A DNA stretch of 64,000 nucleotides from Nonomuraea sp. NBC_00507 (GTDB lineage Bacteria; Actinomycetota; Actinomycetes; Streptosporangiales; Streptosporangiaceae): assembly GCF_036013525.1 (NCBI RefSeq), contig NZ_CP107853.1:7192001-7256000 (forward strand), read 5' to 3'. Shown here one piece after another: positions 7,619 to 34,670 of the stretch; positions within the stretch are counted from its first letter, which is position 1, and the number at the start of each line of letters is the position of its first letter. The position numbers were made by a program, and so were the translations under genes. The notes beneath the pieces are model-generated. The model saw only the letters and a list, made by a program, of their open reading frames with translations, ran no database searches and had not been told where the DNA came from.

Positions 7619-8800
7619 ATGGGCGGTCGCTTGTTCACATCCGAGTCTGTCACGGAGGGCCACCCCGACAAGATCGCCGACCAGATCAGCGACGCGATAC
7701 TCGACGAGCTGCTGAGTGGCGACGCCACCAGCCGGGTCGCGGTCGAGACGCTGATCGCCACCGGCCAGGTGCACGTCGCGGGCGAGGTCACGACCAAGAC
7801 CTACGCCGACATCCCGGCCATCGTCAGGAGGACGCTGCTGGAGATCGGGTACGACTCGTCGGTCAAGGGGTTCGACGGCGCCTCCTGCGGAGTGTCGGTG
7901 TCCATCGGCGCGCAGTCGCCCGACATCGCCCAGGGCGTCGACGACGCCTACGAGCACCGGGTGGCCGGCGACGGCGACGAGCTCGACCGGCAGGGCGCCG
8001 GAGACCAGGGGCTGATGTTCGGCTACGCCTGCCGGGACACGCCCGAGCTGATGCCGCTGCCGATCGCACTGGCCCATCGGCTCGCCCGGCGGCTGTCCGA
8101 GGTGCGCAAGAGCGGCGTCGTGCCGTACCTGCGGCCGGACGGCAAGACGCAGGTGACCGTCGAGTACGACGGCGACCGGCCGGTGCGGCTGGACACCATC
8201 GTCGTCTCCAGCCAGCACGCCTCCGGCGTCGACCTGGACGGCCTGCTCGTCCCCGACATCGCCGAGCACGTCGTGGCGCCGCTGCTGGCCGAGGTCGGCA
8301 TCGAAACCGAGGGCTATCGCCTGCTGGTCAACCCGACCGGGCGGTTCGAGATCGGCGGCCCGATGGGTGACGCGGGGCTGACCGGCCGCAAGATCATCGT
8401 GGACACCTACGGCGGGATGGCCCGGCACGGCGGCGGCGCCTTCTCCGGCAAGGACCCGTCCAAGGTGGACCGCTCGGCCGCGTACGCGATGCGGTGGGTG
8501 GCCAAGAACGTCGTGGCGGCGGGACTGGCCGACCGGTGCGAGGTGCAGGTGGCGTACGCGATCGGCAAGGCGCACCCCGTCGGACTGTTCGTCGAGACCT
8601 TCGGCACCGAGAAGACCGAGGTCGCGAAGATCCAGGACGCCGTGACCAAGGTGTTCGACCTCCGCCCCGCGGCGATCATCCGCGACCTGGATCTGCTGCG
8701 CCCGATCTACGCGCAGACCTCGGCCTACGGGCACTTCGGGCGCGAGGGCCTGTCCTGGGAGAGCACCGACCGCGCCGACGCTCTCGGCAGGGCCGTGTGA
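7619..8800 (+). CDS. metK: S-adenosylmethionine synthetase
   Basis: This 393-aa MetK makes SAM from ATP and methionine. The start ATG 7619 is preceded by GGAGGAG. The N-terminal motif [22 protein letters not shown] is present. So are the methionine/ATP-binding segments [12 protein letters not shown], the [26 protein letters not shown] signature and [19 protein letters not shown]. It heads a run with adenosine kinase and MetF, so it is probably a cluster-borne second copy dedicated to methylation of the polyketide. Most actinomycetes also keep a housekeeping metK elsewhere. The gap to the next gene is 14 nt, with AGGAG directly after the stop. Confidence 0.96.
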
Positions 8801-8814
8801 AGGAGCTGGCATCC

Positions 8815-9843
8815 ATGAGCATCATCGTTACCGGTTCGATCGCGATGGATCATCTGATGACCTTCCCCGGCCGGATCACCGAGCAGCTCGTCAAGGACAA
8901 GCTCGACACGGTGTCGCTGTCCTTCCTCGTCGACCGTCTCACCGTGCGCAGGGGTGGCGTCGGCGCCAACATCGCCTACGGCCTGGGCCAGCTCAACCTG
9001 TTCCCCACCCTGGTCGGCGCCGCGGGCCCCGACTTCGGCGACTACGGCAGATGGCTGCTCCAGCACGGGGTGGACGTCGAGTCGGTCAGGATCTCCGACA
9101 GCCATCACACGGCCCGCTTCTCCTGCACGACCGACCTCGACGGGAACCAGATCGCCTCGTTCTACCCCGGGGCGATGCGGGAGGCGGGGGAGATCGAGCT
9201 GGCCCCGGTCGTACGGCGCGTGGGCGGGTGCGAGCTGGTGATCGTCAGCCCGAACGAGCCGGCCGCCATGGCCCGCCACTCCGAGGAGTGCCGGGCCCGC
9301 GGATACCCGTTCGCCGCCGACCCCTCACAACAACTCGCTCTGCTCGCCGCGGACGAGATCGTCTCGTTGCTGGATGGCGCACATTACCTGCTCACCAACG
9401 AGTACGAGCGGTCTCTGCTCCTGGGCAAGTGCGGCTGGTCGGAGAGGGACGTGCTGGAGCGGGTCGAGGTCTGGGTGACCACCCTGGCCGCCGACGGCGC
9501 ACGCGTCGACCGGCGCGGCATGGAGCCGATCTTCGTGCCTGCGGTTCCGGTGAAGGAGCCGGTCGATCCGACCGGTGCGGGCGACGCGTTCCGCGCCGGG
9601 TTCTTCGCCGGGGTCGCCTGGGGATTCCCGCTGGAGCGCGCGGCTCAGGCCGGCTGCCTCATGGCCGCACTGGCGATCGAGTCGGTGGGCGGCCAGGGAT
9701 ATGAGTTCCATCTCGAGACCGCGGTGGAACGGGTGGCGGACACCTACGGGGGCGCGGCGGCCACCGAGCTCCAGCGGGCCGCGGAGGCGCAGGCCGAGGT
9801 CGCGCTGGGCAAGGTCCCCATGATGGCGCTGGTGTCGCCATGA
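8815..9843 (+). CDS. adoK: Adenosine kinase (PfkB/ribokinase family)
   Basis: This 342-aa sugar/nucleoside kinase closely follows the mycobacterial adenosine kinase pattern. The N-terminus is [20 protein letters not shown], the substrate-lid region is VSLSFLVD, and ARFSCTTD and [10 protein letters not shown] follow. The PfkB signature [13 protein letters not shown] carries the catalytic Asp near residue 262. It phosphorylates adenosine to AMP. In this context it removes the adenosine released when S-adenosylhomocysteine is hydrolysed, pulling the methylation cycle forward. It lies between metK and metF and overlaps metF by 4 nt. A SAH hydrolase gene is not in the window and must be supplied from elsewhere. 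Confidence 0.92.
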
Positions 9844-10736
9844 CGCACCTGACGATCCAGCGGAGCTCCTCGGTCCGGGAGCTGCTCGCGGCGGGCACTC
9901 CCTCCATCTCCTTCGAGTTCTTCCCGCCCAAGACCCCTCAGGGCGAACAGGCGCTCTGGCGGACGATCCGCGAGCTGGAGGCGGTGCGCCCGACGTTCGT
10001 CTCGGTCACGTACGGCGCCGGCGGATCGACCCGCGACCGCACCGTGGAGATCACTGAACGGCTCGCCGGCGATACGACGCGGCTGCCCGTGGCGCACCTG
10101 GTCGCGGTCGACCACTCGGTGGCCGAACTGCGTCACCTCGTCGGCCGGTTCGCGGCGGCGGGCGTGCGGAACCTCCTGGCGCTGCGCGGCGATCCGCCGG
10201 GCGGCGATCCCCTGGGGCAGTGGACCAAGCACCCCCAAGGGGTCGCCTACGCGGCCGACCTCGTCAGGCTGATCAAGGTCGCCGGGGACTTCTGCGTCGG
10301 CGTGGCCGCCTTCCCCTACCGCCATCCCCGCTCACCTGACGTCGAGAGTGACACCCGGCACTTCGTCGAGAAATGCCGTGCGGGCGCCGACTACGCCATT
10401 ACCCAGATGTTCTTCCGGGTCGAGGACTATTTGAGGTTGAGAGACCGCGTCGCCGCCCGCGGCTGCGACACCCCGATCATTCCCGGCATCATGCCGGTGA
10501 CCCGGATGAGCACCATTGAAAGATCGGAGCAGCTCTCGGGCGCGCCATTCCCGCCCGAACTGGCCGCTGCGTTCGACCGGGTCGCCCATGACCCTGAGGC
10601 CGTGCGCCGGCTCGGCATCGATCACACGGTGGACATGTGCGTCAGGCTCCTGGACGAGGGCGTGCCGGGAATTCACTTCATGACCTTCAACACGTCGGCG
10701 GCGACGCTGGAGGTATGCCGGCGACTGGGAATATGA
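9840..10736 (+). CDS. metF: 5,10-methylenetetrahydrofolate reductase
   Basis: This is a 298-aa flavoprotein of normal bacterial MetF length. It contains FEFFPPKT near the start with the key Glu, [23 protein letters not shown] and the [11 protein letters not shown] motif. It reduces methylene-THF to 5-methyl-THF, the methyl donor that turns homocysteine back into methionine. The ATGA overlap with adenosine kinase shows it belongs to the SAM-supply operon with metK. No methionine synthase gene is present in the window. Confidence 0.94.
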
Positions 10737-10771
10737 CAAGAGCTGTAAAGCACCCTGACAGTCTGTATCAG

Positions 10772-10968: not shown

Positions 10969-11880
10969 GTGGATGAGGCGAGGTGGGTCAGTGCTCACGC
11001 CTTCTACCACGATGATCTCGACCAGCTGCTGGTGGACGCCGTGGCGCCGCTGGCTGCGGAGCTGACCGAGCGTGGGCTGGCGACGGACTTCTTCTTCCTG
11101 CGCTGCTGGGATGGGGGAAATCACCTCAGGCTCCGGATACTGCCCGAGCCGGCGGTCGAGCGGGGCGACGTCGAGACGGTGATCAGCGAACGACTCGGTG
11201 AATTCTTCGCCACGCGGCCGTCCACGACCGCGGCCAGGCAGAAGGACTACGAGCGGATGGCGGCCCTGCTCGCGCGCCAGGAGCGGGTGTCCTCCTACTC
11301 TCGCAGCCTTTATCCCAACAACTCGCTGCTGCTCGTGCCGTACCGGCGGGAGCACGGGCGCCACAGGGACGGTCCGGCGGTCCGGGCGGTGGAGCGCCAC
11401 TTCGTCGAGTCCAGCAGGCTTGCGTTGGACATGCTGGTGGACGGCCTCACGCCGGGCGAGCGGGCCACGGCCGCGTACGCGATGACGTGCATCGCCTGGT
11501 TCGCCTCCGTATCCGAGCCGCAGCGGCTGACCGAGCTGGTCAGGGCCTCCGGCAGGAGCGCCGAGCAAGTGGGCCTCCTCGACAAGGGCCGCGCACTCGA
11601 GTCCCAGCGGGAGCAGGCGATCACGCTGGCGAGGCGGATCCGGACGGCCGAAAACTCCGGAGCCCTCGCGGCCTGGGCGCGGTCCGTCACCACGCTGCGT
11701 GAGACGCTGACGTCGCGGGAGGGGCGGCGCGATGCGGGCGGGAGCGCGTTCGCCGTCATGGACAGGTGCGCTCGCCTCCTCTGCAACCGGCTCGGTGTGC
11801 CCCTGGTCGAGGAGGAGTCCCTGCGCCACCTGGCGACCGAGGCCGTCGCGGCCCTGGCCAACGACGGGGCCACGGCATGA
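10969..11880 (+). CDS. Stand-alone SpaB_C / thiopeptide-type bacteriocin biosynthesis domain protein
   Basis: This is a 303-aa protein starting at GTG 10969, with AGGGAGG 6 nt upstream. It shows the domain hallmark: an N-terminal WVSAHAFYHDDLDQLLVDAV segment, then DFFFLRCWDGGNHLRLRILP at about residues 35-60. Helical segments and MTCIAWFASVSEPQRLTELV follow in the second half. The domain occurs as the glutamate-elimination half of lantibiotic dehydratases and as discrete proteins in thiopeptide pathways, including pyridine-forming enzymes. No precursor peptide, dehydratase N-terminal domain or YcaO is nearby. Its presence under an apparent SARP promoter in a type II PKS cluster is unusual and its reaction is unknown. 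Family call is firm; function is open. Confidence 0.75.
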   Translation: MDEARWVSAHAFYHDDLDQLLVDAVAPLAAELTERGLATDFFFLRCWDGGNHLRLRILPEPAVERGDVETVISERLGEFFATRPSTTAARQKDYERMAALLARQERVSSYSRSLYPNNSLLLVPYRREHGRHRDGPAVRAVERHFVESSRLALDMLVDGLTPGERATAAYAMTCIAWFASVSEPQRLTELVRASGRSAEQVGLLDKGRALESQREQAITLARRIRTAENSGALAAWARSVTTLRETLTSREGRRDAGGSAFAVMDRCARLLCNRLGVPLVEEESLRHLATEAVAALANDGATA

Positions 11881-12093: not shown

Positions 12094-13191
12094 GTGGGAC
12101 GACTCGGGCCAAGCGGCGAGGTTCGATGGTTAGTGGCGGATTTGCTGGAGTCTTCCGTGGTGGAGGTCCGCACCGCATACGAGCAGGAGCTCAATAACGC
12201 GAATAGTTCACTTTTGCGTAACCCGGAGTCCGCCGAGCAGGTGCTGGCGAGTTGTACCAGCATCGTCGCCGACGTGGTTGAAGGGCTGCGCGACTCCGCG
12301 CCCACGACGAGGGGCGAGGACATCAGCAGGGAGATCGCCGTCACGCGGGCGCGGCACGGCGTGCACCCGACCGAGTCGCTGCGCGCGGCCGAGATCCTCT
12401 TCGAGGTGGTGCTGCGCTGGGTCGACCAGCGCCTCGGACCCGAGCGTGAGGACGCGAGGCAGGCCCTGGTCGAGCTCTCGCTGCTGTTGAGCAAGAGCAT
12501 CGCGCTGCGTATCCGGGAGGCGTCGAGCTGGTACGCGAGCTTCCTGCTGCAGGAGATCCATCGCGTGCAGTCCGACGAGCGCGCCAGGCTGGCCCGCGAG
12601 CTCCACGACAGGGTGAGCTACGGGGTGACGGTCGGCCACCGGAACCTGGAGAGCCTCCAGCGCCGCGGCCGGAACCTCGATCCGGAGCACGTCAGGCGTT
12701 GCGTCTCCATGGTCCAACTCGCCCTGGAGGAGGCCATAGAGGCGATCCGAAAGCTCATCGGCGACCTGCGCGTGTCGGAGTCGGTGCCCAGCCTGGAGAA
12801 GGCGCTGCACTCCTTCCTGTTCGAGGCCGAGCCCGTGAGGGCGGTCACGTCCGTGGTCGTCAACGGGGACGAGAGCTGGGTGGACCACCAGGTGCGGGAC
12901 GAGGTGTTCCTGATCGTCAGGGAGGCACTGCGCAACGCCCTGGACCACAGCGGGGCCGGGCGGGTCCTGGTGCAGATCGACATCGCGCCGCACGAGCTCA
13001 GGGCCACGGTCGCCGACGACGGCACGGGCTTCGCCGCCACCGGCGCCAGTGACGGGGCCGGGTTGTCGATCATGGCGGAGCGGGCGGCCCTCCTCGGCGG
13101 GAACACGCTGGTCTCCAGCCGCATCGGCAAGGGCACGCGCGTGGAACTGACGGTTCCGTTGCTGAGGGACGGCAATGCCGGCACCTACTGA
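12094..13191 (+). CDS. NarL-type sensor histidine kinase (cytoplasmic)
   Basis: This is a 365-aa kinase from GTG 12094. Translation could also begin further upstream, but that part reads like non-coding sequence. The N-terminal about 140 residues form an all-helical sensor region without membrane segments. The HisKA_3 dimerisation box follows (ERARLARELHDRVSYG, phospho-acceptor H171). The HATPase_c domain contains the N box REALRNALDHSGA, the G1 box DDGTGF and the later GxG turn GKGTRVELTVP. It overlaps its response regulator by 17 nt, so the two are co-translated. Being soluble, it likely senses an intracellular signal such as a pathway intermediate. It sits inside the polyketide cluster and is presumably cluster-specific. 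Confidence 0.88.
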   Translation: MGRLGPSGEVRWLVADLLESSVVEVRTAYEQELNNANSSLLRNPESAEQVLASCTSIVADVVEGLRDSAPTTRGEDISREIAVTRARHGVHPTESLRAAEILFEVVLRWVDQRLGPEREDARQALVELSLLLSKSIALRIREASSWYASFLLQEIHRVQSDERARLARELHDRVSYGVTVGHRNLESLQRRGRNLDPEHVRRCVSMVQLALEEAIEAIRKLIGDLRVSESVPSLEKALHSFLFEAEPVRAVTSVVVNGDESWVDHQVRDEVFLIVREALRNALDHSGAGRVLVQIDIAPHELRATVADDGTGFAATGASDGAGLSIMAERAALLGGNTLVSSRIGKGTRVELTVPLLRDGNAGTY

Positions 13192-13846
13192 TCAGATCAC
13201 CGTCGTCATCGTCGATGACCACACGCTCTTCCGCGTCGGATTACGAGAGATCTTCCAGGACCAGGACGACATCGTGGTCGTGGGGGAGGCGGGTGACGGC
13301 GCCACCGCCGTCAAGCTGATCGCCGAGCTGCGGCCCGCCATCCTGCTGCTCGACGTGTCCCTGCCCGGGGAGGACGTCACCACCACGATGCGGGCCGTGA
13401 AGGCGGCCTCGCCCGGCACCCGGGTCGTCATCGTGAGCATGCAGGACGAGCCCAGGCTGATCCAGGAGCTGATCGCGCTCGGCGCGCGGGCCTACCTGCT
13501 GAAGAGCGCGAGCTGGCACGAGCTGATGGCGGCGGTCAGGATGGCGCACACCAGCTCCACCCGGGTCCTGCTGTCGATCTCCGCGGGGAGCGTGGCCGGA
13601 ATGCGCGGCTCCGCCCGCGACGACCGGCCGCCGATCGGCGTGCTGTCCGCGCGGGAGATCGAGGTGCTCAGGCTCGCCTCGGCGGCCATGAGCAATGCGC
13701 AGATCGCCAGCAGGCTGCACCTCACCGAGGCGACGGTCAAACGCCACCTGCACAGCATCTTCACCAAGCTCGGCGCGGTGTCCAGGATCGACGCGGTGAG
13801 CAAGGCCATCTCGGCCTCGCTCATCCCGAGCTGGACCGACGAATGA
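13175..13846 (+). CDS. NarL/FixJ-family response regulator
   Basis: This 223-aa two-domain regulator has a receiver domain (VVIVDDHTLFRVGLREIF at the N-terminus, phospho-acceptor D60 in LLLDVSLPG, Lys in AYLLKSAS). A LuxR-type HTH follows (LSAREIEVLRLASAAMSNAQIASRLHLTEATVKRHLHSIFTKLG). It is the partner of the overlapping kinase. Target promoters are not identified; the SARP gene that converges on it and the divergent SARP/UbiA promoter region are plausible. Transcription ends at a strong hairpin 3 nt after the stop. Confidence 0.93.
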   Translation: MPAPTDQITVVIVDDHTLFRVGLREIFQDQDDIVVVGEAGDGATAVKLIAELRPAILLLDVSLPGEDVTTTMRAVKAASPGTRVVIVSMQDEPRLIQELIALGARAYLLKSASWHELMAAVRMAHTSSTRVLLSISAGSVAGMRGSARDDRPPIGVLSAREIEVLRLASAAMSNAQIASRLHLTEATVKRHLHSIFTKLGAVSRIDAVSKAISASLIPSWTDE

Positions 13847-13848
13847 CC

Positions 13849-13876
13849 GGTAGCGCCTCCCCCGGGGGGCGCTACC
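13849..13876. terminator. Bidirectional hairpin terminator
   Basis: Perfect 9-bp arms GGTAGCGCC (13849-13857) and GGCGCTACC (13868-13876) enclose a C5/G4 core that can extend the stem. It lies between the convergent response-regulator and SARP genes, 3 nt after one stop and 11 nt from the other. There is no U-tract, as is common in actinomycetes. Confidence 0.85.
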
Positions 13877-13887
13877 GCTCGGGTCGA

Positions 13888-14676
13888 TCAGCCGGCGAAC
13901 TGCAGCTCGGGACCGGTGTCCAGGCCGGTGGTCAGGATGGCCTGGTGCAGGTCCTGCAGCTCCCGGGAGGGGTCGATGCCGAGGTCCTGGTTGAGTATCG
14001 ATCGCACGTTGCGATAGGCGTGCAGGGCCTCGCTGCGCCGTCCGCTCCTGCAGAGCGCGGAGATGAGCTGGGCATGGAACCATTCGTTGTGCGGATAGGT
14101 CGCGGCCAGCGCCTTGAGCTCGCCGACGAGCTCGCGATGCCGGCCGAGCAGGACGTCTGCCTGGATGCGCAGCTCCACAGCGCGCAGCCGCTCCTCTTCC
14201 CGGTGGACACGGTAGGCGCGCAGCAGCGATCCCTGGGAGACGTTGGCCAGGGGCGGCCCCGTCCACAGGTCGAGCGCCCTGCCGAGCTGCCGGGAGGCCT
14301 CAAGGTAGCGGCCCTCGGCCAGCGCCTTCCGCCCCTCGGCGAGCATGCGCTGGAAGACGTACGCGTCCAGTTGATCGCCGTCGACCTGCAGGACGTAGCC
14401 GAAGGGCTTGGTCACCAGCAGCTCCCCCGCGGGGGTGGCCAGCCTCTCCCGCTCAAGGGCCTTCCTGAGTTGGTAGATGTAGGTCTGAGCGGTGCTCTGT
14501 GCGGTCTTCGGCGGGTCCTCACCCCACAGCTCCTCGATCAAGGACTCGAACCCGACTATGCGATTGGCCCGGGAGAGTAACAAGGCGAGTACCTGGCAGA
14601 CTTTGGGTGTTCTCGGAGTGAATTCTCGTTCCCCGTTCATCGCCGTCAGCGCGCCCAGAATCGTGAACCGAATCAT
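13888..14676 (-). CDS. SARP-family pathway activator (AfsR/DnrI/RedD type)
   Basis: This 262-aa activator starts at ATG 14676, with GAGGTG about 5 nt upstream; the longer frame back to 14724 lacks support. The N-terminal OmpR-type winged-helix DNA-binding domain spans residues 1-95 (MIRFTILGALTAMNGER, LALLLSRANRIVGFESLIEELWGEDPP, TYIYQLRKAL). A bacterial transcriptional activator (BTAD) domain follows, with tetratricopeptide-like helices ending in LRSGRRSEALHAYRNVRSILNQDLGIDPSRELQ-type sequence. SARPs switch on antibiotic clusters by binding 11-bp-spaced heptamers, and such a site exists at 10772-10800. It is divergent from the UbiA gene. Confidence 0.93.
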   Translation of the reverse strand: MIRFTILGALTAMNGEREFTPRTPKVCQVLALLLSRANRIVGFESLIEELWGEDPPKTAQSTAQTYIYQLRKALERERLATPAGELLVTKPFGYVLQVDGDQLDAYVFQRMLAEGRKALAEGRYLEASRQLGRALDLWTGPPLANVSQGSLLRAYRVHREEERLRAVELRIQADVLLGRHRELVGELKALAATYPHNEWFHAQLISALCRSGRRSEALHAYRNVRSILNQDLGIDPSRELQDLHQAILTTGLDTGPELQFAG

Positions 14677-14889: not shown

Positions 14890-15807
14890 ATGGGGGACAA
14901 CACACCGAACCGAAGCGCAGCCCTTCGCCGAATCCCAGCCACCGCGATTTCCGATCTCGGCTTATGCCTGTCCGAGGCCCGCCCGATCGTCCAGATCATC
15001 TTCCTGTTCCGGTTCCTCACGGGAGCCGCGCTCGGCTACACCGCGGGTGAGACCGACCTCGCCGCCGTCGGCTTCGGCGCGTTCACCTGGGAGTGCGCGG
15101 TCGTGTTCGTCTATCTCCTCAACGGGGCGACCGACGTGCTGGAGGACCGCATCAACGGCTCCCGCCGCCCCATCGCCTCCGGCGTCCTGCCCAGGCACGT
15201 CGCGCTCCGATACGTGCGGCTGACCGGCGTGGGGGCGCTGGCCGGGGGCATCGTCATGGGCTGGGAGTTCCTCGTGGCCGTCGTCATCTTCATGCTGCTC
15301 GGCTACCTGTACTCCGCGCCGCCGTTCCAGCTCAAGAACAACCCCGGCGCGACGATCGCCGTGGCCGCACTCGGCGGACTGGTGACCTACCTGGCCGGAT
15401 CCGCCAGCGCCGCGTCCGGCGGCGGCCTGCCGGCGCTCGTCTGCGCGGGCGCGATGTCGCTGTGGATGGGCCTGGTCGGCGCCATCGCCAAGGACTTCGG
15501 CGACATCGACGGCGACCGCGCGGCGGGCCGCCGCACGATCGCCGTGCTGCTGGGCGACACCGCGGCGCGGCGGCTGGTCGGCCTGATCGCGCCGGCCCTC
15601 GGCGTGGCGTTCTTCCTTGCCGCCCTGCACGTGGCGCCGGTGCTCATCGTGTCCGCCGTCGTGACCCTGCTGGGAGCGATCGTGGTGGCATGGTTCGCGC
15701 TGACCCCGGCCAGGGGTGACAGGAACGCCCGGCGCAGGCCGTACCGCGCCTTCATGACCACCCAGTACGGCTCGCATGCCGGGGTGGCGCTGGCCCTGAC
15801 CGTGTGA
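14890..15807 (+). CDS. UbiA-family prenyltransferase
   Basis: This is a 305-aa integral membrane protein with about eight to nine hydrophobic helices. It has both Asp-rich prenyl-diphosphate/Mg-binding motifs of the UbiA superfamily: [17 protein letters not shown] in the first cytosolic loop and [16 protein letters not shown] in the second. Such enzymes transfer an isoprenoid chain to an aromatic acceptor, as in ubiquinone, menaquinone, chlorophyll or meroterpenoid synthesis. It heads the PKS gene run and is divergent from the SARP, so it probably prenylates the polyketide. A role in quinone metabolism linked to the cydAB pair is an alternative. The exact start is unsure because GGAG lies only 1 nt before ATG 14890. 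Confidence 0.85.
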
Positions 15808-24415: not shown

Positions 24416-24825
24416 TGGCCAACAAGATCTCGTTGACGGACGTCACGCCGACCAGGCGCTTCGGCTGCGACATCCGGGCCCTGCTGACGCCCAACTCTGT
24501 CGGCTCCACCTCGGGCTTCCTCGGCACGATGAACCTGGCGCCAGGGGAGATCGTGGCCGCGCACTACCACCCTTACTCCGACGAGTACTGGTTCGTCGCC
24601 GAGGGCCGGCTGTCGGTCCGCATCGACGGCGAGGAACTCCGCGCCGCGCAGGGCGATGCGTTGTTCGTGCCGCGCGGCAAGGAACACCGGATCGAGAACA
24701 CCGGCGACGAGCCGGCGCTGGTGGTCTTCCACATCGCGCCGCTCGCCCCCAGCCCGGAGCTGGGGCACGTGGACGTCGAGCCGATGCCCTTCCCGGCCGC
24801 GCCCCCGCCATCAGTGGGAGGATGA
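24415..24825 (+). CDS. Cupin-family polyketide cyclase/stabilising protein (TcmJ/WhiE-II-like)
   Basis: This is a 136-aa single-domain cupin. Metal-binding motif 1 is GEIVAAHYHPYSDEYWFVAEGRL and motif 2 is GDALFVPRGKEHRIENTG. Cupins such as TcmJ accompany type II PKSs and improve correct folding and cyclisation of the nascent chain, probably as part of the PKS complex. The gene overlaps the methyltransferase stop and ends directly before the KS start, in the conserved cupin-KS-CLF order. Confidence 0.9.
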   Translation: MANKISLTDVTPTRRFGCDIRALLTPNSVGSTSGFLGTMNLAPGEIVAAHYHPYSDEYWFVAEGRLSVRIDGEELRAAQGDALFVPRGKEHRIENTGDEPALVVFHIAPLAPSPELGHVDVEPMPFPAAPPPSVGG

Positions 24826-27326: not shown

Positions 27327-28946
27327 ATGGCAGACAGAGAAGTTTCCGTCCTGGTCGTCGGGGGCGGGCTGAACGGACTGGCGTCGGCCCTCTTCCTGAG
27401 CCAGCAGGGCGTGGACGTCCACCTGGTCGAGCGCAACGACAAGACGGCGCAGCTGCTGCGCGCGGCGGGCGTCAGCGCCCGCACCATGGAGTTGTTCCAC
27501 AGCGTCGGGCTGGAGCCGGAGATCCGCGAGCGCGGCCTGCGGCTGATCCCCGGTGAGCACTGGACCGAGCCCCACTCGCCGGTCGACCTGCTGCCGCGGG
27601 CCATCCTGGGCGCCAAGCGGCTGTCCGACATCGGCAACGGCCGCGCCTTCGTCATGGAGGAGGGCACGGTCGAGGTGGCCGACGCCAGCCCCATGGAGCC
27701 TGCCTGGTGCGGCCAGGACCGGCTGGAGCCGATGATGATCCGCGAGGCCGTGCAGCGCGGCGCGCGGATCGAGTTCGGCACCGAGATGGTGTCCTACGAG
27801 CAGGACGCCGACGGCGTGACCGCTGTGGTGCGCACCCTGGCCACCGGCGCCGAGCAGCGGATCAGGGCCCGCTACCTGATCGCCGCCGACGGCGTGACCA
27901 GCCCCATCCGCGAGTCCCTGGGCATCACCAGGTCGGGCAACGGCACCATCGGCCACGTGCTGAGCATCCTGTTCGAGGCCGACCTGGACTCGGTGGTGGA
28001 GGGCCGCAGGTTCCTCATCGCGTACCTGCTCAACGAGGCCGCGGGGCTGCTGCACCGGTTCGACGAGACCCGCTGGGTCTTCGGCCTGTTCTTCGACCCC
28101 GAGCGGCACGCCGAGGCCGAGACATCCAAGGACAAGGCGCTGGAGCTGCTGCGTACCGCGCTCGGCGAGCCGGACCTGCCCATCGACATCCAGCTCGTCA
28201 ACCGCTGGCGGCTGGCCCACGACGTCGCCGACACCTACCGGTCCGGCCGGATCTTCCTGGTCGGCGACGCCTGCCACGTGCACCCTCCGGCGGGCGGCTA
28301 CGGGGCCAACTCCGGCATGCAGGACGCCCACAACCTCGCCTGGAAGCTCGCCGCGGTGCTGCGTGGCTGGGCCGGCGAGAGCCTGCTCGACAGCTACGAG
28401 CAGGAGCGGCACCCGGTGGGCAAGGCGACCGCCGACCAGGCCTGGATCCGCCAGACCACCCGCAGCGAGGGCGACGGCGGGCACCCCGACCTGCGCAACT
28501 CCACCGTGATCAGCACCGGCTACCGCTACCCCGAGGGCGCGTTCGTCGGCGAGAAGGGCGGCGAGGCCCTGGAGACGGAGCTGCGCATCGACGGCCGTCC
28601 CGGGCTGCGGGTGCCGCACGTCTGGCTGGAGCGCGAGGGCGCCAAGGTGTCCACGGTAGAGCTGGCGACGGACACGTTCGTGCTGCTGGCCGCGCCCGAC
28701 GGCGCCTCCTGGGCCGACGCCGCCACGGCCGCGGCCGGCGCACTCGGCATCCCGCTGTCCGCGTACCGGATCGGCACCGACCTCGCGGACGCCGAGGGCA
28801 GGTTCCTCCAGGTCACCGGCCTCACCCCGCAGGGGGCGCTGCTGGTGCGGCCGGACGGCTTCGTCGCCTGGCGCTCGCCCGGCGCCGCCGGGGACCCGCG
28901 CGTCCTGCTCCAGGACGTGCTCGAGCAGATCACCGCACGGGCCTAG
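27327..28946 (+). CDS. FAD-dependent aromatic hydroxylase (TcmG/PgaE class)
   Basis: This 539-aa flavoprotein monooxygenase of the phenol-hydroxylase fold has a Rossmann motif VLVVGGGLNGLASALFLSQQG at the N-terminus. The middle DG motif is LIAADGVTSPIRE. The GD motif is FLVGDACHVHPPAGGYGANSGMQDAHNL near residue 315. A thioredoxin-like C-terminal domain (from about residue 410) is also seen in TcmG and related enzymes. It probably hydroxylates or rearranges the polycyclic core with NAD(P)H and O2. It follows the CLF by 13 nt with AAGGAG. Confidence 0.93.
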   Translation: MADREVSVLVVGGGLNGLASALFLSQQGVDVHLVERNDKTAQLLRAAGVSARTMELFHSVGLEPEIRERGLRLIPGEHWTEPHSPVDLLPRAILGAKRLSDIGNGRAFVMEEGTVEVADASPMEPAWCGQDRLEPMMIREAVQRGARIEFGTEMVSYEQDADGVTAVVRTLATGAEQRIRARYLIAADGVTSPIRESLGITRSGNGTIGHVLSILFEADLDSVVEGRRFLIAYLLNEAAGLLHRFDETRWVFGLFFDPERHAEAETSKDKALELLRTALGEPDLPIDIQLVNRWRLAHDVADTYRSGRIFLVGDACHVHPPAGGYGANSGMQDAHNLAWKLAAVLRGWAGESLLDSYEQERHPVGKATADQAWIRQTTRSEGDGGHPDLRNSTVISTGYRYPEGAFVGEKGGEALETELRIDGRPGLRVPHVWLEREGAKVSTVELATDTFVLLAAPDGASWADAATAAAGALGIPLSAYRIGTDLADAEGRFLQVTGLTPQGALLVRPDGFVAWRSPGAAGDPRVLLQDVLEQITARA

Positions 28947-28955: not shown

Positions 28956-29273
28956 ATGGCGACCATCACCACGGACGAGAAGCACTACACGCTGATCAAC
29001 ATCTTCCGGGTGACTCCGGAGAACCAGCGGCGCATGTACGACATCATCCTCGACGCCACCGACGTGATCACCAAGTTTCCCGGATACGTGTCGGCGAACG
29101 TGCACCTCAGCGACGACGGCACCCGGGTGGTGAACTACGCGCAGTGGCGCACCAAGGAGGACTTCGACGCCATGCGCGCGCATCCCAGCGTCCAGGAGCA
29201 CTTCGCGGCCTGCCGGGCGCTGGCCGATATCGAGCCGATCTTCTGCCACGTGGAGTACACGCACGAGGTCTGA
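28956..29273 (+). CDS. ABM-family monooxygenase (anthrone-oxygenase type)
   Basis: This 105-aa protein belongs to the antibiotic biosynthesis monooxygenase family. It shows the ferredoxin-like pattern with PGYVSANVHLSDDGTRVVNYAQWRTKEDFDAM and a C-terminal CHVEYTHEV. Cofactor-free members such as TcmH and ActVA-ORF6 oxidise anthrones to quinones. ATG 28956 is chosen with AGGTGA 5 nt upstream; GTG 28947 would add three residues. It ends the biosynthetic run before the TetR operator. Confidence 0.88.
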   Translation: MATITTDEKHYTLINIFRVTPENQRRMYDIILDATDVITKFPGYVSANVHLSDDGTRVVNYAQWRTKEDFDAMRAHPSVQEHFAACRALADIEPIFCHVEYTHEV

Positions 29274-29283
29274 TGTTAAGGTG

Positions 29284-29325: not shown

Positions 29326-29856
29326 ATGAGCACGGGAAGCCGACGGCAGGCACTGGTGGAGGCCGCCTTCCACTGCGTGGCGGCCCGAGGTTTCGAAGGT
29401 CTCCGCCTCCGCGAGGTCGCCAAGGAGGTCGGCATCGACCACTCGACCGTCCACCACTACTTCCCGACCAAGGAAGACCTGGTGGCCGCGGTGGTCGACC
29501 ACGCCACCCGCCAGTTCTGGAAGACGATGCCGCCCCAGCCCAGCGCCGCCGCCACGATCAAGCATCACCTGGCGGTGCTGGCCGACATGATCCGCACCCG
29601 TCCCGAGTTGTTCGCGGTGCTGCGCGAGCTGGACCTGCGGGCCGCCAGGGACGCGCGCATCAGGGAGATCGTCGCGAGCAACGAGCGAGGCTGGCACGAC
29701 GCCCTGCGCGAGGTGCTCGCGCAGGCGGCGCCCGGCGCCGACGCGAAGGCGACGGCCGACCTCGTCATCTCCGTGGCCCGCGGCGTCAGCCTCGCCCCGG
29801 ACCTGGCGCCCGCTGTTTTCGCACAGCTCGAACTGTTGCTCGACCTGACCGACTGA
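29326..29856 (+). CDS. TetR-family regulator upstream of cydAB
   Basis: This is a 176-aa repressor from ATG 29326 with GGAGG at 7-nt spacing. The HTH spans residues about 5-50 (RRQALVEAAFHCVAARGFEGLRLREVAKEVGIDHSTVHHYFPTKEDLV). The C-terminal ligand-binding helices include RTRPELFAVLRELDLRAARD. It is directly preceded by a 26-bp palindrome and followed after 21 nt by cydA. It likely responds to the pathway product or an intermediate and derepresses the bd-oxidase genes. The ligand is inferred only. Confidence 0.9.
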   Translation: MSTGSRRQALVEAAFHCVAARGFEGLRLREVAKEVGIDHSTVHHYFPTKEDLVAAVVDHATRQFWKTMPPQPSAAATIKHHLAVLADMIRTRPELFAVLRELDLRAARDARIREIVASNERGWHDALREVLAQAAPGADAKATADLVISVARGVSLAPDLAPAVFAQLELLLDLTD

Positions 29857-29877: not shown

Positions 29878-31185
29878 GTGCCGGCGGATGCGATCGTCTA
29901 CGCACGGCTTCAGTTCGCGCTGACCGCCGTCGCGCACTGGCTGTTCGTAGCCCTCACGCTGGGCCTCGTCACCTACGTCGTGATCATCCAAACCATGTGG
30001 ACGGTCACCGGAAACCCCCGTTACGAGCGGATGACCCGATTCTTCGGCCAGCTCTACCTCATCAACTACGCGCTCGGCATCGCCACGGGCATCGTGATGG
30101 AGTTCCAGTTCGGGCTGAACTGGAGCGGGCTGACCAAGGTCACCGGCAGCGTCTTCGGCGCACCACTGGCGATCGAGACGCTCGTGGCGTTCTTCCTGGA
30201 GTCGACCTTCCTCGGCATCTGGATCTTCGGCTGGAACCGCCTCGGCAAGCGGCTGCACCTGGCGATGATCTGGCTCACCGCCGTCACCGCCTGGATGTCG
30301 GTCTTCTGGGTCCTGATGGCCAACTCGTTCCTGCAGCACCCCGTCGGGCACGCCTCCGCCGCGAACGGGCGGCTGGTACTGGCGGACTTCGCCGAGTTCG
30401 TCGGCAACCCGAACTTCTGGCACGCCATCCCGCACGCGGCGGCGGCGGCGATCACCACCGGCACGTTCTTCGTCGCCGGCGTCAGCGCCTGGCACCTCAG
30501 GCGGCTGCCCGAGGGTCACGAGGACCGGGCCGCGTTCCTGCTCCTGCTGCGCATGTCTGTCTACATCGCGCCGTTCTTCGTGTTCGTCACCGCCTTCATG
30601 GGCGGCCAGCTGCTCGACGTCATCAACGTGGAGCAGCCCATCAAGGGCGCACTGGCCGACAACGACCTCGCTTTAGCGGCCCGGCTGCAGGAAGAGATGG
30701 TCGCCAAACACGGTCCCGGTGAATACATCCCGGTCCACGAGTTCATCTACATCACCCGCACGGTCATGATCTGGTCGGCCATCACTCTGCAGGCCGTGTC
30801 CGTCATCACCGCGCTCATGACCATCAAGATCTCGCTGCTGCTCACCCGGTTCGCCTGGCTGCTGCGGGTGTTCCCGTGGCTGATCCCGGTGCCGTTCCTC
30901 GCGGCCACCGCGGGCTGGCTGTTCCGGGAGGTGGGCCGCCAGCCGTGGGCCGTCTACGAGATCCTCAAGACCGAGGACGCGATCAGTCCCGGGCTGACCA
31001 GCGGCGTGCTGCTGACCTCCCTCATCGTCTTCACCCTGGTCGTCGGGGCACTGGCCGTCACCGACTGGCGGCTGCTGGCGAAGTTCGCCCGCCGCGGGCC
31101 CGACGCCGCCCAGCTGGGCTCCCAGGGCCAGGAGACGGACACTGACGAAGAAGAAGAGCTCGCGATCACCGGAGGTCGGCTGTGA
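29878..31185 (+). CDS. cydA: Cytochrome bd-type oxidase subunit I (cluster-borne paralogue)
   Basis: This 435-aa multi-helix membrane protein starts at GTG 29878 with AAAGGAG. The haem ligands are recognisable as H20 (LTAVAHWLF), H182 (NFWHAIPH) and M297 (TRTVMIWSA). The proton-path/haem-environment acids E100 and E108 lie in LAIETLVAFFLES. The periplasmic quinol loop is short and altered: the usual GDxSG element is replaced by MGGQLLD, followed by INVEQPIKGALADND. It would reduce O2 with quinol electrons. Its place in the PKS cluster behind a TetR suggests a resistance oxidase or a redox enzyme for the pathway rather than the housekeeping oxidase. Confidence 0.88.
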   Translation: MPADAIVYARLQFALTAVAHWLFVALTLGLVTYVVIIQTMWTVTGNPRYERMTRFFGQLYLINYALGIATGIVMEFQFGLNWSGLTKVTGSVFGAPLAIETLVAFFLESTFLGIWIFGWNRLGKRLHLAMIWLTAVTAWMSVFWVLMANSFLQHPVGHASAANGRLVLADFAEFVGNPNFWHAIPHAAAAAITTGTFFVAGVSAWHLRRLPEGHEDRAAFLLLLRMSVYIAPFFVFVTAFMGGQLLDVINVEQPIKGALADNDLALAARLQEEMVAKHGPGEYIPVHEFIYITRTVMIWSAITLQAVSVITALMTIKISLLLTRFAWLLRVFPWLIPVPFLAATAGWLFREVGRQPWAVYEILKTEDAISPGLTSGVLLTSLIVFTLVVGALAVTDWRLLAKFARRGPDAAQLGSQGQETDTDEEEELAITGGRL

Positions 31186-32198
31186 CCTGGCACGCTGCTT
31201 GGCTCGTCCTCACCGGGCTGATGTTCGCCGGATACCTCCTCACCGAGGGACGCAGCATCGGCATCGGGCTCATCCTGCCCGTGCTGGGCAGGAGCGACCG
31301 CGACAGGGACGCCGTCGTCGACACGATCGGGCCGTACTTTCTCGGCAACGAGGTGTGGATCGTCTCCGTGGTGGGCCTGCTCATCGGCGGCTTCCCGGTC
31401 TTCGAGGGGACGCTGCTGTCCGGGCTCTTCCCGCTCTTCGCCGCGTTCGCGCTGGGCATGGTGGTGCGCGGCGCTTCCTTCCACTTCCGCCGCCGCCACC
31501 CGTCGCCGCGCTGGCGGCGCGGCTGGGCCGCCGCCATCACCGCCGCCAGCCTCGTGATCGCGCTGGCGCTCGGCGCGATCGCCGCCGCGCTGCTCCACGC
31601 CCTGCCGCTGCGGCCGGACGGGGTGCTGCCGCTGACCGCAGGGGTGCTGTTCACCCCGTTCGGGCTGGCCTGCGCGCTCACGTCCGTGCTGTTCTTCGCG
31701 CTGCGTGGGGCGGCGTTCGCGGCGACCAGGACCCGGGGGCCGCTCGCCGGGCGGGCCATCGGGCTCGCCAGCCTGCTCACCCGGCTCGCCCTGGCCGGCG
31801 CGGCGATCTCCTTCGGCGTGGGCCTGCTGGCCGCCGACGTGCGGGCCTCCGTGCAGCAGCCGATCGTCGTGTGGGTGCTGGCCGGCGTCGTCGCCGTGGC
31901 GCTCGTGGTGTGCGACGTCTTCGCGATGCGGGCCGCGCCCCGGCGCGCGCTCGCCCTGTCGGGAGTCGTCCTGCTCGCCGCCGCGGCCGCCGTCGCCGTC
32001 GGCCGCCTGCCCTACCTGCTCGTCTCCCAGTACGGCGACTCGGCCGGCATGACAGTGGCCGAGGGCAGCGCGGATCCGGTCGTGCTGGCGCCACTGTTCT
32101 GGGTCGTGGCCGTGCTGGTCCCGTTGCTGGCCGCCCTCCAGTGGTGGGCGGGACGTCTCTACCGCACCGCCAGGACCGGCGCGCGCGCCTACTTCTAG
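31182..32198 (+). CDS. cydB: Cytochrome bd-type oxidase subunit II
   Basis: This 338-aa membrane protein has about nine hydrophobic helices. It starts at GTG 31182 within the cydA stop (GTGA overlap). The family N-terminal pattern is present: a first helix, then TEGRSIGIGLILPVLGRSDRDRDAVVDTIGPYFLGNEVWIV, equivalent to the CydB TDGFDxG and GNQVW segments. It forms the heterodimer with CydA. The CydCD assembly transporter is not in the window. The gene precedes the acyltransferase by only 15 nt, so cydAB is probably co-transcribed with PKS genes. Confidence 0.88.
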   Translation: MTWHAAWLVLTGLMFAGYLLTEGRSIGIGLILPVLGRSDRDRDAVVDTIGPYFLGNEVWIVSVVGLLIGGFPVFEGTLLSGLFPLFAAFALGMVVRGASFHFRRRHPSPRWRRGWAAAITAASLVIALALGAIAAALLHALPLRPDGVLPLTAGVLFTPFGLACALTSVLFFALRGAAFAATRTRGPLAGRAIGLASLLTRLALAGAAISFGVGLLAADVRASVQQPIVVWVLAGVVAVALVVCDVFAMRAAPRRALALSGVVLLAAAAAVAVGRLPYLLVSQYGDSAGMTVAEGSADPVVLAPLFWVVAVLVPLLAALQWWAGRLYRTARTGARAYF

Positions 32199-32213
32199 GT
32201 GGAGGAACAGATC

Positions 32214-33458
32214 ATGACCGTGCAGCTTCAGGACGTGACCGACGCGCGGGCGCTGCTCTGGTCGGGCCGCGACGAGGCCGAGTGGGAGTCGGGGCGGCGG
32301 CGGCTGGCAGAACGGCTGGCAGAGCGACCGGTTACGGCCGCGGAGTTCGCCGCCGTCGCCGGCGAGTGGAACGCCTGTGAGCGCGGCGACGGCCCGGTGC
32401 GCGGCGCGATCGTCGCGGCGGACGCGGCGGCCGCGCTGGCGGCCCTGCCGGGCGCGCGGCCGTCCGCGGCGCTGCGGCGGCCGGTCGCGCTGCTCTTCCC
32501 CGGGCAGGGTGCGCAGCACCGCCGGATGGCCGCCGGCCTGTACGGGTTCGAGCCCGTCTTCACCGCCGCGATGGACGAGCTGTTCGACCTGCTCGGTCCC
32601 GACGGGGAGGAGGTGCGGGCCGACTGGCTCGCCGACGAGCCCCGGGTCCCCGTCGACGAGGTGTCGCGGGCCCAGCCGCTCCTGCTCGGCGTCGGCCACG
32701 CGCTGGCGCGAACGCTGATCGGCTGGGGGCTGCGGCCTGGGGCGTTGCTCGGGCACAGCGTGGGGGAGACCGTCGCCGCGGTGGTGGCGGGGGTGTTCTC
32801 CCTGGAGGACGCGGTGGCCACGATGCGGCACCGCGTCGCGGCCGCCGCCTCTCAGCCGCCCGGCGGCATGCTGGCGGTCGGCGCCGCCGCCGAGGCGCTC
32901 GCCCCCTACCTGCGGGGCTCAGTCGTGGTGGGGGCGGTCAACTCGCCCCGGCAGACAGTGCTCGCCGGTCTGGCCGCGGAACTGGGCGCCGTCGCCGACG
33001 ACCTGCGGGAGGCCGGGTTCATGGTGGTCCCCGTGCCGTCGCCGCTGGGCTTCCACAGTCCGGCCGTGGACGAGCTGGCCAGGAGCGGGCTCGACGTGCT
33101 CGGCCGCGTCACGTACAGCCCACCGGGGCTGCCGCTCTACTCCGCGTACACGTGCGCGCCGCTCACCGCGGAGCAGGCCGGCGACCCGTGGTTCTGGGCC
33201 AGGCAGGTGGCCGACCCCGTGCTGTTCTGGCCGGCGCTCGACCGGCTGCTGAACGACGGCGACTTCCTCCTCGTCGAGGCGGGGCCGTCGCAGGGCCTCA
33301 TCACCGCCTGCCGCCGCCACCGGTCGGTGATCAGGAAGAAGAGCGACGTGACGGCCTTCCTGCCCGCCCGCCCCGGCACGGCGGAGGCCGACAGAGCCGC
33401 CCTGCTGACGGCCGCGGCGCGGATCTGGACGGAAGGGCACGACATCACGCCGTGGTGA
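32214..33458 (+). CDS. Discrete PKS-type acyltransferase
   Basis: This 414-aa protein has a full acyltransferase domain preceded by about 85 extra N-terminal residues. Motifs are ALLFPGQGAQHRRMA, the nucleophile elbow LLGHSVGE (Ser), and SPLGFHSPAVDELA with the catalytic His. In type II systems discrete AT-like proteins load unusual starters or edit misprimed acetyl-ACP. With no KSIII in the cluster, editing or malonyl loading is more likely. ATG 32214 follows GGAGGA. Its 3' end overlaps the convergent PPTase gene by 14 nt. Confidence 0.88.
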   Translation: MTVQLQDVTDARALLWSGRDEAEWESGRRRLAERLAERPVTAAEFAAVAGEWNACERGDGPVRGAIVAADAAAALAALPGARPSAALRRPVALLFPGQGAQHRRMAAGLYGFEPVFTAAMDELFDLLGPDGEEVRADWLADEPRVPVDEVSRAQPLLLGVGHALARTLIGWGLRPGALLGHSVGETVAAVVAGVFSLEDAVATMRHRVAAAASQPPGGMLAVGAAAEALAPYLRGSVVVGAVNSPRQTVLAGLAAELGAVADDLREAGFMVVPVPSPLGFHSPAVDELARSGLDVLGRVTYSPPGLPLYSAYTCAPLTAEQAGDPWFWARQVADPVLFWPALDRLLNDGDFLLVEAGPSQGLITACRRHRSVIRKKSDVTAFLPARPGTAEADRAALLTAAARIWTEGHDITPW

Positions 33459-34143
33459 CCCCCGCCAGGTAGGGGGCGGCGCTGCCCGCCGCCACGCGGG
33501 GCATCTCCCGCACCCCGATGATCGCGAGCGCCGCGGCGTGCCCGTCTCGCCGCGGCAGGTCCGTGAGCGCCACCCGGAGCAGCGGGCGCCCGCGGAAGCC
33601 GAGCAGGCGCGCGGGCTGATCGGGAGGGGAGACGATCACGTGCGACATGGGCACGCGCAGCCCGTCACCGGTGGCCTTCAGCACGGCCTCCTTGCGCGTC
33701 CAGTAGGCGATGAATCCGGCCACGGGGTCGGCCGTGCGCCCCAGCGCCTCGGCTTCGACATCCGCGAGCGCCGCCTCCACCAGCGCCGTGCTCCGTTCGG
33801 CGACGCGCTCCACGTCGATGCCCACGGGCCCCACGCCGCTGATCGCCACAGCCACCCAGCGGCCGGAGTGAGACACCGAGAGGTGCAGCTCGTCGCCGGG
33901 CAGGCGCGGCTTGCCGTGCGGGCGGGCACAGGCCGGGCAGTCGCGACGCAGCGGCACGTCGGCGGCAGGCACGCCCAGGCGCCTGCCGAGCATGATCCTG
34001 GTGATCGCACAGCCCAGGATGAAACGGTGGCGGTCCGCCGGGGCACGGTACTTGCCCTTGCGGAGCCGTTCCACGGGGTCGAGGAGCTCCTCATGCCAGG
34101 CCCGCACCTCGCCGAGCTCGGCCCACCACACCTCGCAGGTCAT
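33445..34143 (-). CDS. Sfp-type 4'-phosphopantetheinyl transferase
   Basis: This is a 232-aa PPTase from ATG 34143, which overlaps the upstream stop (ATGA). The two signature regions are VGPVGIDVERV (Mg-binding Asp/Glu) and FIAYWTRKEAVLKATGDGL (WxxKEAxxK). The PLRRDCPACARPHGKP region fits the broad-substrate class that modifies secondary-metabolism carrier proteins. It should convert both carrier proteins of this cluster to holo form. It is convergent with the acyltransferase and shares 14 bp with its end. Confidence 0.94.
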   Translation of the reverse strand: MTCEVWWAELGEVRAWHEELLDPVERLRKGKYRAPADRHRFILGCAITRIMLGRRLGVPAADVPLRRDCPACARPHGKPRLPGDELHLSVSHSGRWVAVAISGVGPVGIDVERVAERSTALVEAALADVEAEALGRTADPVAGFIAYWTRKEAVLKATGDGLRVPMSHVIVSPPDQPARLLGFRGRPLLRVALTDLPRRDGHAAALAIIGVREMPRVAAGSAAPYLAGVTTA

Positions 34144-34670
34144 CCGGCTCGGTCCGGGAGCGCGGCGGCCAGGCCGTCGAGCAACAGCTTCAGGCCGAAG
34201 CGGAAGCGCTCCCCGCACGGGGCGTCCGGCGCCGAGGCAAGGTGGGGATGACGCCCTTCCGGCGCGTGCCGGCACGCGGCAAGGCTGGGGTGACGTCCGT
34301 CCGGTGCGTGCTGGTACGCGGCGTCGGCGATCGCGTACAGCAGCAGCCCGGTCAGCGCCGCGGCGCGGGTCGCCTCCGGCAGACCGGCCGCACGCATGAT
34401 CGCCAGCATTCCCTCCCTGACGCGCAGCCCCTGCGGGCACACCGGAGACTCCAGCGCGGCTCGCGCCACGCCCGGATCGACCAGCAGCGCCTCGCGCAGC
34501 CCGGCGGTCGCCTCCTCCAGCTGCTCCCGCCAGCGCCGCGGGTCCGCGTCGGGCACGCGGACCCCGGCGAGAATGCCCTCGAGCGTGATCGGGGGCCTGC
34601 GGGGCGGGGTCGTGCGCGGAGGCCACCAGGCGGGCAGGCGGGCCGCCGTCGGCAGCAGGTCGGTTTCCAT
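34140..34670 (-). CDS. TetR C-terminal-domain protein lacking a DNA-binding HTH
   Basis: This 176-aa protein starts at ATG 34670, with GGAGTGA upstream. From about residue 30 it matches a TetR_C effector-binding domain (VRVPDADPRRWREQLEEATAGLREALLVDPGVARAALESP...AIMRAAGLPEATRAAALTGLLLYAIADAAYQ). The N-terminal HTH expected before this is absent and replaced by a short Pro/Arg-rich segment. It may be a truncated regulator or a free ligand-binding protein. It contains a duplicated 14-residue segment (HAPDGRHPSLAACR and HAPEGRHPHLASAP). It overlaps the PPTase gene by 4 nt. Confidence 0.65.
   Translation of the reverse strand: METDLLPTAARLPAWWPPRTTPPRRPPITLEGILAGVRVPDADPRRWREQLEEATAGLREALLVDPGVARAALESPVCPQGLRVREGMLAIMRAAGLPEATRAAALTGLLLYAIADAAYQHAPDGRHPSLAACRHAPEGRHPHLASAPDAPCGERFRFGLKLLLDGLAAALPDRAG
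34236..34319. repeat. 42-bp in-frame tandem duplication
   Basis: Units 34236-34277 and 34278-34319 are diverged copies that begin GGCAAGG and end with GCACGC or GTACGC. The period is a multiple of three, so the reading frame of the surrounding TetR_C-like protein stays open and gains 14 residues. The copies differ at several positions, so the duplication is not very recent. Confidence 0.75.

Follow-up and report, generated by a model that had tools for sequence, protein, structure and literature searches.

Gene content and organisation of the locus

The 64,000-nucleotide (nt) stretch of the 12.9 Mb genome of Nonomuraea sp. NBC_00507 analysed here (contig NZ_CP107853.1, positions 7,192,001 to 7,256,000; hereafter the window, with positions counted from its first letter) contains a type II polyketide synthase (PKS) cluster that probably makes an aromatic polyketide primed with glycine and that carries three unusual accessories, namely a stand-alone SpaB_C protein, a UbiA-family prenyltransferase and a cytochrome bd oxidase (cydAB). 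All genes described below lie on the + strand unless stated otherwise, and families were assigned by Pfam scans of the genes between 6.4 and 34.7 kb.

The synthase core comprises the ketosynthase KS-alpha (24858..26093, PF00109/PF02801; best PDB match actinorhodin KS), with its active-site cysteine in STGCTSG, and the chain length factor (CLF or KS-beta; 26090..27313, PF00109; best PDB match actinorhodin CLF), which has glutamine at that position, together with the polyketide acyl carrier protein ACPa (19525..19776, PF00550). The tailoring genes of the core encode a TcmN-type aromatase/cyclase (21088..21540, PF03364 and PDB matches), a TcmI-type cyclase (23067..23399, PF04673, 3.7e-31), a cupin cyclase (24415..24825, PF07883), a TcmG-like FAD aromatic hydroxylase (27327..28946, PF01494 and PF21274), a TcmH-like ABM monooxygenase (28956..29273, PF03992) and two O-methyltransferases (OMT1, 19788..20840, and OMT2, 23402..24415; both PF00891). 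No gene between 6.4 and 34.7 kb matched the ketoreductase (short-chain dehydrogenase) family, in agreement with the initial annotation. By gene content, the core is that of an unreduced, tetracenomycin-type type II PKS. At the gate of the CLF the window has Tyr-Gly-Leu, where 55 of 80 aligned rows have Phe-Gly-Leu; these residues single out no particular chain length.

Embedded in this block are a stand-alone adenylation (A) enzyme (21596..23137, PF00501; TIGR01733 303.6 bits, cut-off 317.4), the gene of which is overlapped by the TcmI-type gene by 71 nt, and a second carrier protein, ACPb (20837..21085, PF00550), a probable glycyl carrier. The block is preceded by the UbiA gene (14890..15807, PF01040) and by genes for an acetyl-CoA carboxylase, consisting of a carboxyltransferase with fused accD and accA (accDA; 15918..17606, PF03255, PF01039), a biotin carboxyl carrier protein (bccp; 17603..18097, PF00364) and the biotin carboxylase accC (18109..19479, PF00289, PF02786, PF02785). 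It is followed by a TetR regulator (29326..29856, PF00440), cydA, encoding a divergent bd oxidase subunit I (29878..31185, PF01654), cydB (31182..32198, PF02322; TIGR00203 above cut-off), a discrete acyltransferase with an active-site serine (32214..33458, PF00698) and a 4'-phosphopantetheinyl transferase (PPTase; 33445..34143, - strand, PF01648). Furthest upstream are metK, encoding S-adenosylmethionine synthetase (7619..8800, PF00438/02772/02773), a PfkB-family kinase gene (8815..9843, PF00294), which from its place between metK and metF is probably an adenosine kinase gene (adoK) of S-adenosylmethionine recycling, metF, encoding methylenetetrahydrofolate reductase (9840..10736, PF02219), the stand-alone SpaB_C (Lant_dehydr_C) protein (10969..11880, PF14028, E 1e-33), a NarL-type histidine kinase with no evident membrane span (12133..13191, PF07730/PF02518; maximum 19-residue hydropathy 1.06), a LuxR-type response regulator (13175..13846, PF00072/PF00196) and a SARP-family activator (13888..14676, - strand, PF03704 BTAD and PF00486). 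The initial annotation had named KS-alpha/CLF/ACP, the cyclases including a TcmI-like gene, the TcmG- and ABM-like genes, UbiA, the A enzyme with its second carrier, SpaB_C and cydAB, all of which were recovered by the scans; metK-adoK-metF, accDA-bccp-accC, the histidine kinase, response regulator, SARP, discrete acyltransferase and PPTase are additional.

From UbiA (14890) to the acyltransferase (33458) every called gene is on the + strand, the largest intergenic gap is 110 nt (UbiA to accDA) and the remaining gaps are 55 nt or less or overlaps, so that the A enzyme, UbiA, cydAB and the acyltransferase plausibly belong to one transcription unit. The SpaB_C gene lies outside this presumed main unit, separated by 232 nt from metF upstream and by 252 nt from the histidine kinase gene downstream. 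A scan of 10.5-16 kb gave no sigma-70-like promoter and a near-chance number of terminator-like matches (3, compared with 1.8 in shuffled sequence, s.d. 1.7), and repeats around the SARP-UbiA gap are unremarkable. SpaB_C and UbiA are 96% and 99% identical to entries of Nonomuraea turcica. The whole cluster is kept in a second genome of the same species (G046), in which 30 genes, from the TetR gene at 6439 to the TetR gene at 34670 and excluding the TcmI-type gene, have the same order and 95.5-100% protein identity, which argues that the cluster is not a chance assembly.

Related clusters and core phylogeny

Lcz28 is an A enzyme of S. sanglieri from the lactonamycin Z (lcz) cluster; lcz and the lactonamycin cluster (lct) encode tetracenomycin-like type II PKSs. 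A search with Lcz28 over 392 Streptomyces-type genomes gave 11 matches at E 1e-175 or better, six of which were opened at 20 kb (L185, L186, L189, L191, L192, L193), and one of these six, in Streptomyces G795 (L201, L185, L202; C4 259501-319500), contains a type II PKS cluster. The G795 cluster shares with the window the collinear order ACPa-OMT1-ACPb-TcmN-A-TcmI-cupin-KS-CLF-ABM, with identities of 71% for KS, 69% for CLF, 68% for TcmN and 57% for A, as well as accDA (in pieces in G795), bccp and accC. It differs in having no match above 35 bits within 60 kb to UbiA, SpaB_C, cydAB, the acyltransferase, metK, adoK, metF, the histidine kinase or the response regulator, and no close counterpart of OMT2 (a methyltransferase-like gene is 27% identical).

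In the KS plus CLF tree (80 rows, restricted to loci with both proteins at full length), a phylogeny that the initial annotation had suggested as a check, the window and G795 form a sister pair with support 1.0. This bears on the polyphenol proposed in that annotation, of which the unreduced tetracenomycin-like form stands and the spore-pigment-like form becomes less likely. A spore-pigment identity was set aside because KS and CLF group with those of G795, whose cluster contains an A enzyme. The TcmN-type cyclase leans the other way, with 190 bits against 3tl1/2kf2, the cyclase of the WhiE spore pigment, and a little less, 165 bits, against TcmN.

Among the 80 named KS-alpha loci, the best of a longer list, full-length KS and CLF proteins are up to 68.5% and 59.2% identical to those of the window. 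SpaB_C (14 kb off) and UbiA (10 kb off) were not seen in these loci, which says little as the flanks of 10 kb, with many contigs shorter, mostly exclude them. Two short fragments exceed the identity of G795 to the window, one in L106 (22% of a CLF, 72%) and one in L096 (42% of a KS, 73%); the former, a C-terminal CLF piece at 12422-12697, where the analysed stretch of this Streptomyces contig ends, points to a second type II PKS there that may be a close relative. In Nonomuraea zeae (L151), a type II PKS core lies downstream of two large A-domain proteins, a possible amino-acid/aromatic polyketide hybrid.

Clusters of Micromonospora parva, M. noduli and M. foliorum (L108, L110, L125) resemble the window in metK (80% identical), SARP, the response regulator (53-54%), KS, CLF, OMT1, ABM, the flavin monooxygenase, TcmI (scanned in L108), OMT2, cupin, ACP, TcmN and accDA-bccp-accC, whereas the A enzyme, second ACP, UbiA, SpaB_C and cydAB were not found in 21 kb. 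The collinearity with G795, the sister relationship in KS and CLF and the ACPb match described below, set against Micromonospora clusters with one ACP and no A enzyme in these 21 kb, distinguish a lineage with an A enzyme and two carriers from relatives that seem to be primed with acetate. Nonomuraea longicatena keeps the A enzyme (81%), UbiA (73%) and SpaB_C (61%); for each of the three the contig measures 146136 bases, so that they apparently share one contig, on which the remainder of the cluster may also lie. Outside the species itself, no relative examined carries the A enzyme, UbiA, SpaB_C and cydAB together; for the relatives examined at full length, this bears out the earlier impression that no known cluster has all four.

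The adenylation enzyme and the starter unit

To our knowledge, few type II PKSs start from an amino acid. The nine-residue pocket of the A enzyme, DLFFLCLLS, as assigned by hand on GrsA motifs, is the same in the window, N. longicatena and Lcz28. ACPa has its closest counterparts in ACPa of G795 and in type II ACPs, while the best match of ACPb among 10 other carriers is G795 ACPb (score 125, next 85), and in both genomes the A enzyme and second carrier lie inside the PKS block. A stand-alone A enzyme with an identical pocket (Lcz28) and a glycine starter are found in the lactonamycin/lactonamycin Z and goondicone systems: in PMC11727212, goondicones are proposed to derive from glycine and nine acetates, and the lactonamycins are a branch of that route. 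According to PMC4383371, every pentangular or tetracenomycin training cluster with a starter other than acetate possesses a type III KS or else an A domain standing alone. The likeness of the window to lct/lcz lies in the tetracenomycin-like type of PKS and in the A enzyme (Lcz28), the KS/CLF grouping being with G795; unlike the lactonamycin cluster proper, the window has no deoxysugar (rhodinose) or glycosyltransferase family match among the 7-35 kb genes.

An amino acid probably enters the polyketide through the A enzyme. Because the pocket equals that of Lcz28 and the enzyme sits within the collinear PKS block of Streptomyces G795, the A enzyme and ACPb more likely supply a glycine starter than aminoacylate a finished polyketide, which keeps the amino acid of the aminoacylated product proposed initially and moves its likely point of entry to the start of the chain.

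The SpaB_C protein

Position 269 of the SpaB_C protein is arginine in the window, N. turcica and N. longicatena and histidine in 70 of 70 other relatives (proteins of 260-380 amino acids from P0001-P0075; P0076-P0080 not used), and aligns with the histidine of MadB and a tyrosine of PbtD. In PMC4341554, H961 of NisB is the catalytic histidine of elimination; a figure legend there puts its site in the glutamylation domain and the text in the elimination domain. The window protein differs from the LanB elimination domains (NisB, MibB, MadB) in having Arg269 at the place of the histidine of eliminase-like relatives, and from the TbtD/PbtD pyridine synthases, where PbtD has tyrosine. The frame is open, the SpaB_C fold is present in a predicted model (predicted local distance difference test, pLDDT, 91) and the other invariant residues R45, R54, R56, N273, R274 and E282 are kept; the N. 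longicatena protein has lost further near-invariant residues.

Assignment as a pyridine synthase was rejected on the score against NF045556 (92 bits, over its first half, compared with a curated cut-off of 325) and on arginine in place of tyrosine, despite a lower score against TIGR03891 (81 bits) and a model that fits TbtD/PbtD better than the LanB domains. On this sequence evidence the protein is neither an ordinary eliminase nor a pyridine synthase, and since arginine replaces a histidine invariant in all 70 relatives, and tyrosine in PbtD, it probably has a new function. No gene of the cluster matched the dehydratase family of ribosomally synthesised and post-translationally modified peptides (RiPPs). 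In the seven loci opened out of ten other Nonomuraea loci, relatives of about 40% identity adjoin a large gene resembling a RiPP dehydratase, as judged by size and position. Three further SpaB_C domains occur in the same genome, at 1585830-1588685 and 10338265-10339038 of G000 C1 (L009, L012, L011), two of them close together in a possible RiPP locus.

UbiA and the kinase-regulator module

The window UbiA has both Asp-rich motifs of its family and is probably an active prenyltransferase. Relatives occur in 27 of 54 Nonomuraea genomes, and in 23 of the 25 loci outside the species, all of which were opened, a histidine kinase and a response regulator more than 45% identical to that of the window lie within 7 kb of UbiA, both exceptions being on short contigs. 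A set of 394 genomes of the class gave 11 UbiA matches: that of the window itself, a Nonomuraea match included in the counts above, and nine that are spread over six further genera. In all nine, kinase and regulator adjoin UbiA (regulator identity 44-51%, with eight of the regulators truncated where the locus ends). In 23 of the 25 Nonomuraea and eight of the nine other loci (31/34), UbiA has an isopropylmalate-synthase-like gene nearby, and in 21 of the 25 an aldo-keto reductase, these two families having been checked on L197 and L221. As only 2 of 51 response regulator matches in the window's own genome exceed 45% identity, one being the window's own (150 of 252 candidates scored), the linkage is, by these counts, far above chance; several of the 25 loci resemble one large PKS locus in different species, which reduces the number of independent cases. 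The two closest UbiA relatives opened, L194 (56%) and L195 (52%, at a contig end), have the kinase, regulator, SARP and UbiA together and no synthase in view.

The recurrent module (L194-L200, L203-L229 and window 12133-15807) consists of UbiA, a cytosolic-looking histidine kinase and a response regulator, frequently joined by a PPTase and a large LuxR regulator. One further Nonomuraea locus (L209, G021 C5) has cydAB within 6 kb of it. The window's genome holds a second PPTase-regulator-kinase-LuxR set (L240, G000 C1 11962326-11967897), with no UbiA in 20 kb, which is followed near 11.98 Mb by large A-domain genes (L241).

The cydAB genes and the acyltransferase

Five cydA sites occur in the genome. 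The cluster CydA is 46-54% identical to the other four copies, and among 52 other Nonomuraea genomes only three matches reach E 1e-115 or lower, at 52-53% identity. The CydA and CydB families, the GRQPW motif and the N-terminal histidine, at their usual positions, are present, and the loop region diverges in the alignment. A recent duplication of housekeeping cydAB was rejected on these identities (at most 54% within the genome and 53% outside it), and membership of the UbiA module on the presence of cydAB beside UbiA in only one of 25 loci. Lying within the putative transcription unit of the PKS, cydAB may serve this cluster in particular, probably in respiratory self-protection. The acyltransferase matches malonyltransferases and acyltransferase domains of type I PKSs, and in a hand alignment to a FabD motif it seems to keep the arginine that binds the malonyl carboxylate.

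Proposed pathway and alternatives

The observed genes, their homology and synteny, the shared pocket, the lost histidine and the linkage of the module are read here, as a fairly probable interpretation, as those of an aromatic polyketide pathway that starts from glycine, lacks ketoreduction and is akin to the lactonamycin-type and G795-type clusters. The A enzyme would activate glycine and load it onto ACPb, and the glycyl unit would prime KS-alpha/CLF. AccDA, the carrier protein and AccC would make malonyl units, which the discrete acyltransferase would load for extension on ACPa, and the chain would be folded into rings by the TcmN, TcmI and cupin cyclases, oxidised by the ABM monooxygenase and FAD hydroxylase, and methylated by the two O-methyltransferases, supplied by MetK, AdoK and MetF. 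The glycine nitrogen, left free, could close a ring as a lactam or imine, with SpaB_C, an eliminase-like fold without the eliminase histidine, acting on an amine-bearing intermediate. The kinase, regulator, SARP and UbiA would form a regulatory or signalling module and CydAB would give respiratory protection against the product, which we infer is probably a nitrogen-containing, multi-ring aromatic compound derived from glycine.

Several observations weigh against parts of this proposal. DLFFLCLLS occurs in 35 of the 120 best A relatives listed (query included; 5129 passed the threshold), the exact pocket is present in one A enzyme (L059) of four Nonomuraea loci with a large KS-containing protein (L059-L062), the other three being one residue off, and in the A tree the window, G795 and Lcz28 come together only in a 30-member clade (0.941). 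The pocket is not special to lactonamycin; judged from sequence, it points to glycine or some other very small amino acid and not to lactonamycin itself. In addition, SpaB_C is not part of the main unit and changes more rapidly: its ratio of nonsynonymous to synonymous rates (dN/dS) is 0.43, with 22 differences in the same-species pair, and the remaining genes, metK through the acyltransferase gene, have ratios of 0-0.26, that of ACPa being undefined. UbiA directly precedes accDA, which also fits a tailoring role. An acetate-primed, tetracenomycin-type polyketide tailored later, to which the A enzyme and ACPb would attach an amino acid as ester or amide and UbiA a prenyl group, would agree with the Micromonospora clusters, in which the larger part of the core is present and no A enzyme was found in 21 kb, and with a UbiA that has intact motifs and is encoded ahead of the PKS genes, presumably in one unit with them. 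It is nevertheless considered unlikely, given that A enzyme and ACPb are encoded among the PKS genes of both Nonomuraea and G795, that the pocket is shared with Lcz28, that no condensation domain was matched among the 6.4-34.7 kb genes and that kinase and regulator accompany UbiA relatives. In the PDB the A enzyme is matched best by 8k4r and 6akd, VinM and IdnL7 of macrolactam pathways, and with a stand-alone carrier and discrete acyltransferase at hand the enzyme could instead add a protecting alanyl or glycyl group to an amine borne on ACPb, for transfer to the PKS by the acyltransferase as VinK does; this appears very improbable, as no recognised beta-amino-acid biosynthesis gene was found in 7-35 kb and the acyltransferase has the malonyl-type matches and arginine noted above.

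Two accessories of the glycine-primed pathway admit further readings. SpaB_C could be a decaying passenger from a RiPP cluster, idle in the pathway, which would fit its position and raised dN/dS, the dehydratase-like neighbours of its 40% relatives, the lost histidine and the further losses in N. longicatena. This is held to be rather doubtful, because N. longicatena keeps the protein with the same His-to-Arg change, apparently on the contig with A and UbiA, and because the frame is open, the model confident, the other invariant residues retained and dN/dS still below 1. A more ambitious and speculative proposal, which we think improbable, is that SpaB_C represents a third branch of the fold of LanB elimination and thiopeptide cyclase domains (histidine in eliminases, tyrosine in aza-cyclases, arginine here) and closes a nitrogen ring between the glycine amine and the polyketide, with UbiA belonging to a widespread, undescribed module of prenyl signal and two-component system. 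For UbiA itself, a signalling module captured by the PKS cluster as a switch, in which a prenylated signal made by UbiA is read by the cytosolic kinase, is slightly favoured; it is compatible with glycine priming and competes with the prenylated product proposed initially, which is weakened by the kinase-regulator linkage (23/25 and 9/9 loci) despite the intact Asp-rich motifs. The synthase-like gene in most loci and the rarity of similar regulators in the genome also favour it, whereas the repeated large PKS locus, the own-genome set without UbiA and the lack of the synthase-like and reductase genes in the window count against it, and prenyl sensing by the kinase is a supposition. UbiA may accordingly be part of a regulatory or signalling module, with a tailoring role as the alternative.

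The kind of system, a glycine-started type II PKS, is already known, and a further gene-complete lineage makes amino-acid priming of type II PKSs testable. If the proposal is true, the known range of this RiPP-enzyme fold would be broadened by a version with an exchanged catalytic residue that has become fixed in clusters of this sort in two species. The linkage of UbiA, kinase and regulator in many actinomycete loci is a warning against inferring a prenylated product from UbiA alone. In a partial library, and hence as weak evidence of absence, no recognisable paper was found on this cluster, on a SpaB_C protein encoded in a type II PKS cluster or, at the level of titles and listings, on the UbiA-kinase-regulator module.

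Cluster edge and flanking genes

The PPTase gene at the cluster edge is unusually divergent between the same-species genomes (8 nonsynonymous and 2 synonymous changes). Both flanks look unrelated to the cluster, with CoA-transferase and acyl-CoA dehydrogenase genes at 1-6360 and, at 34796-63939, LacI regulators together with genes that by eye resemble those of sugar transporters and glycosidases.

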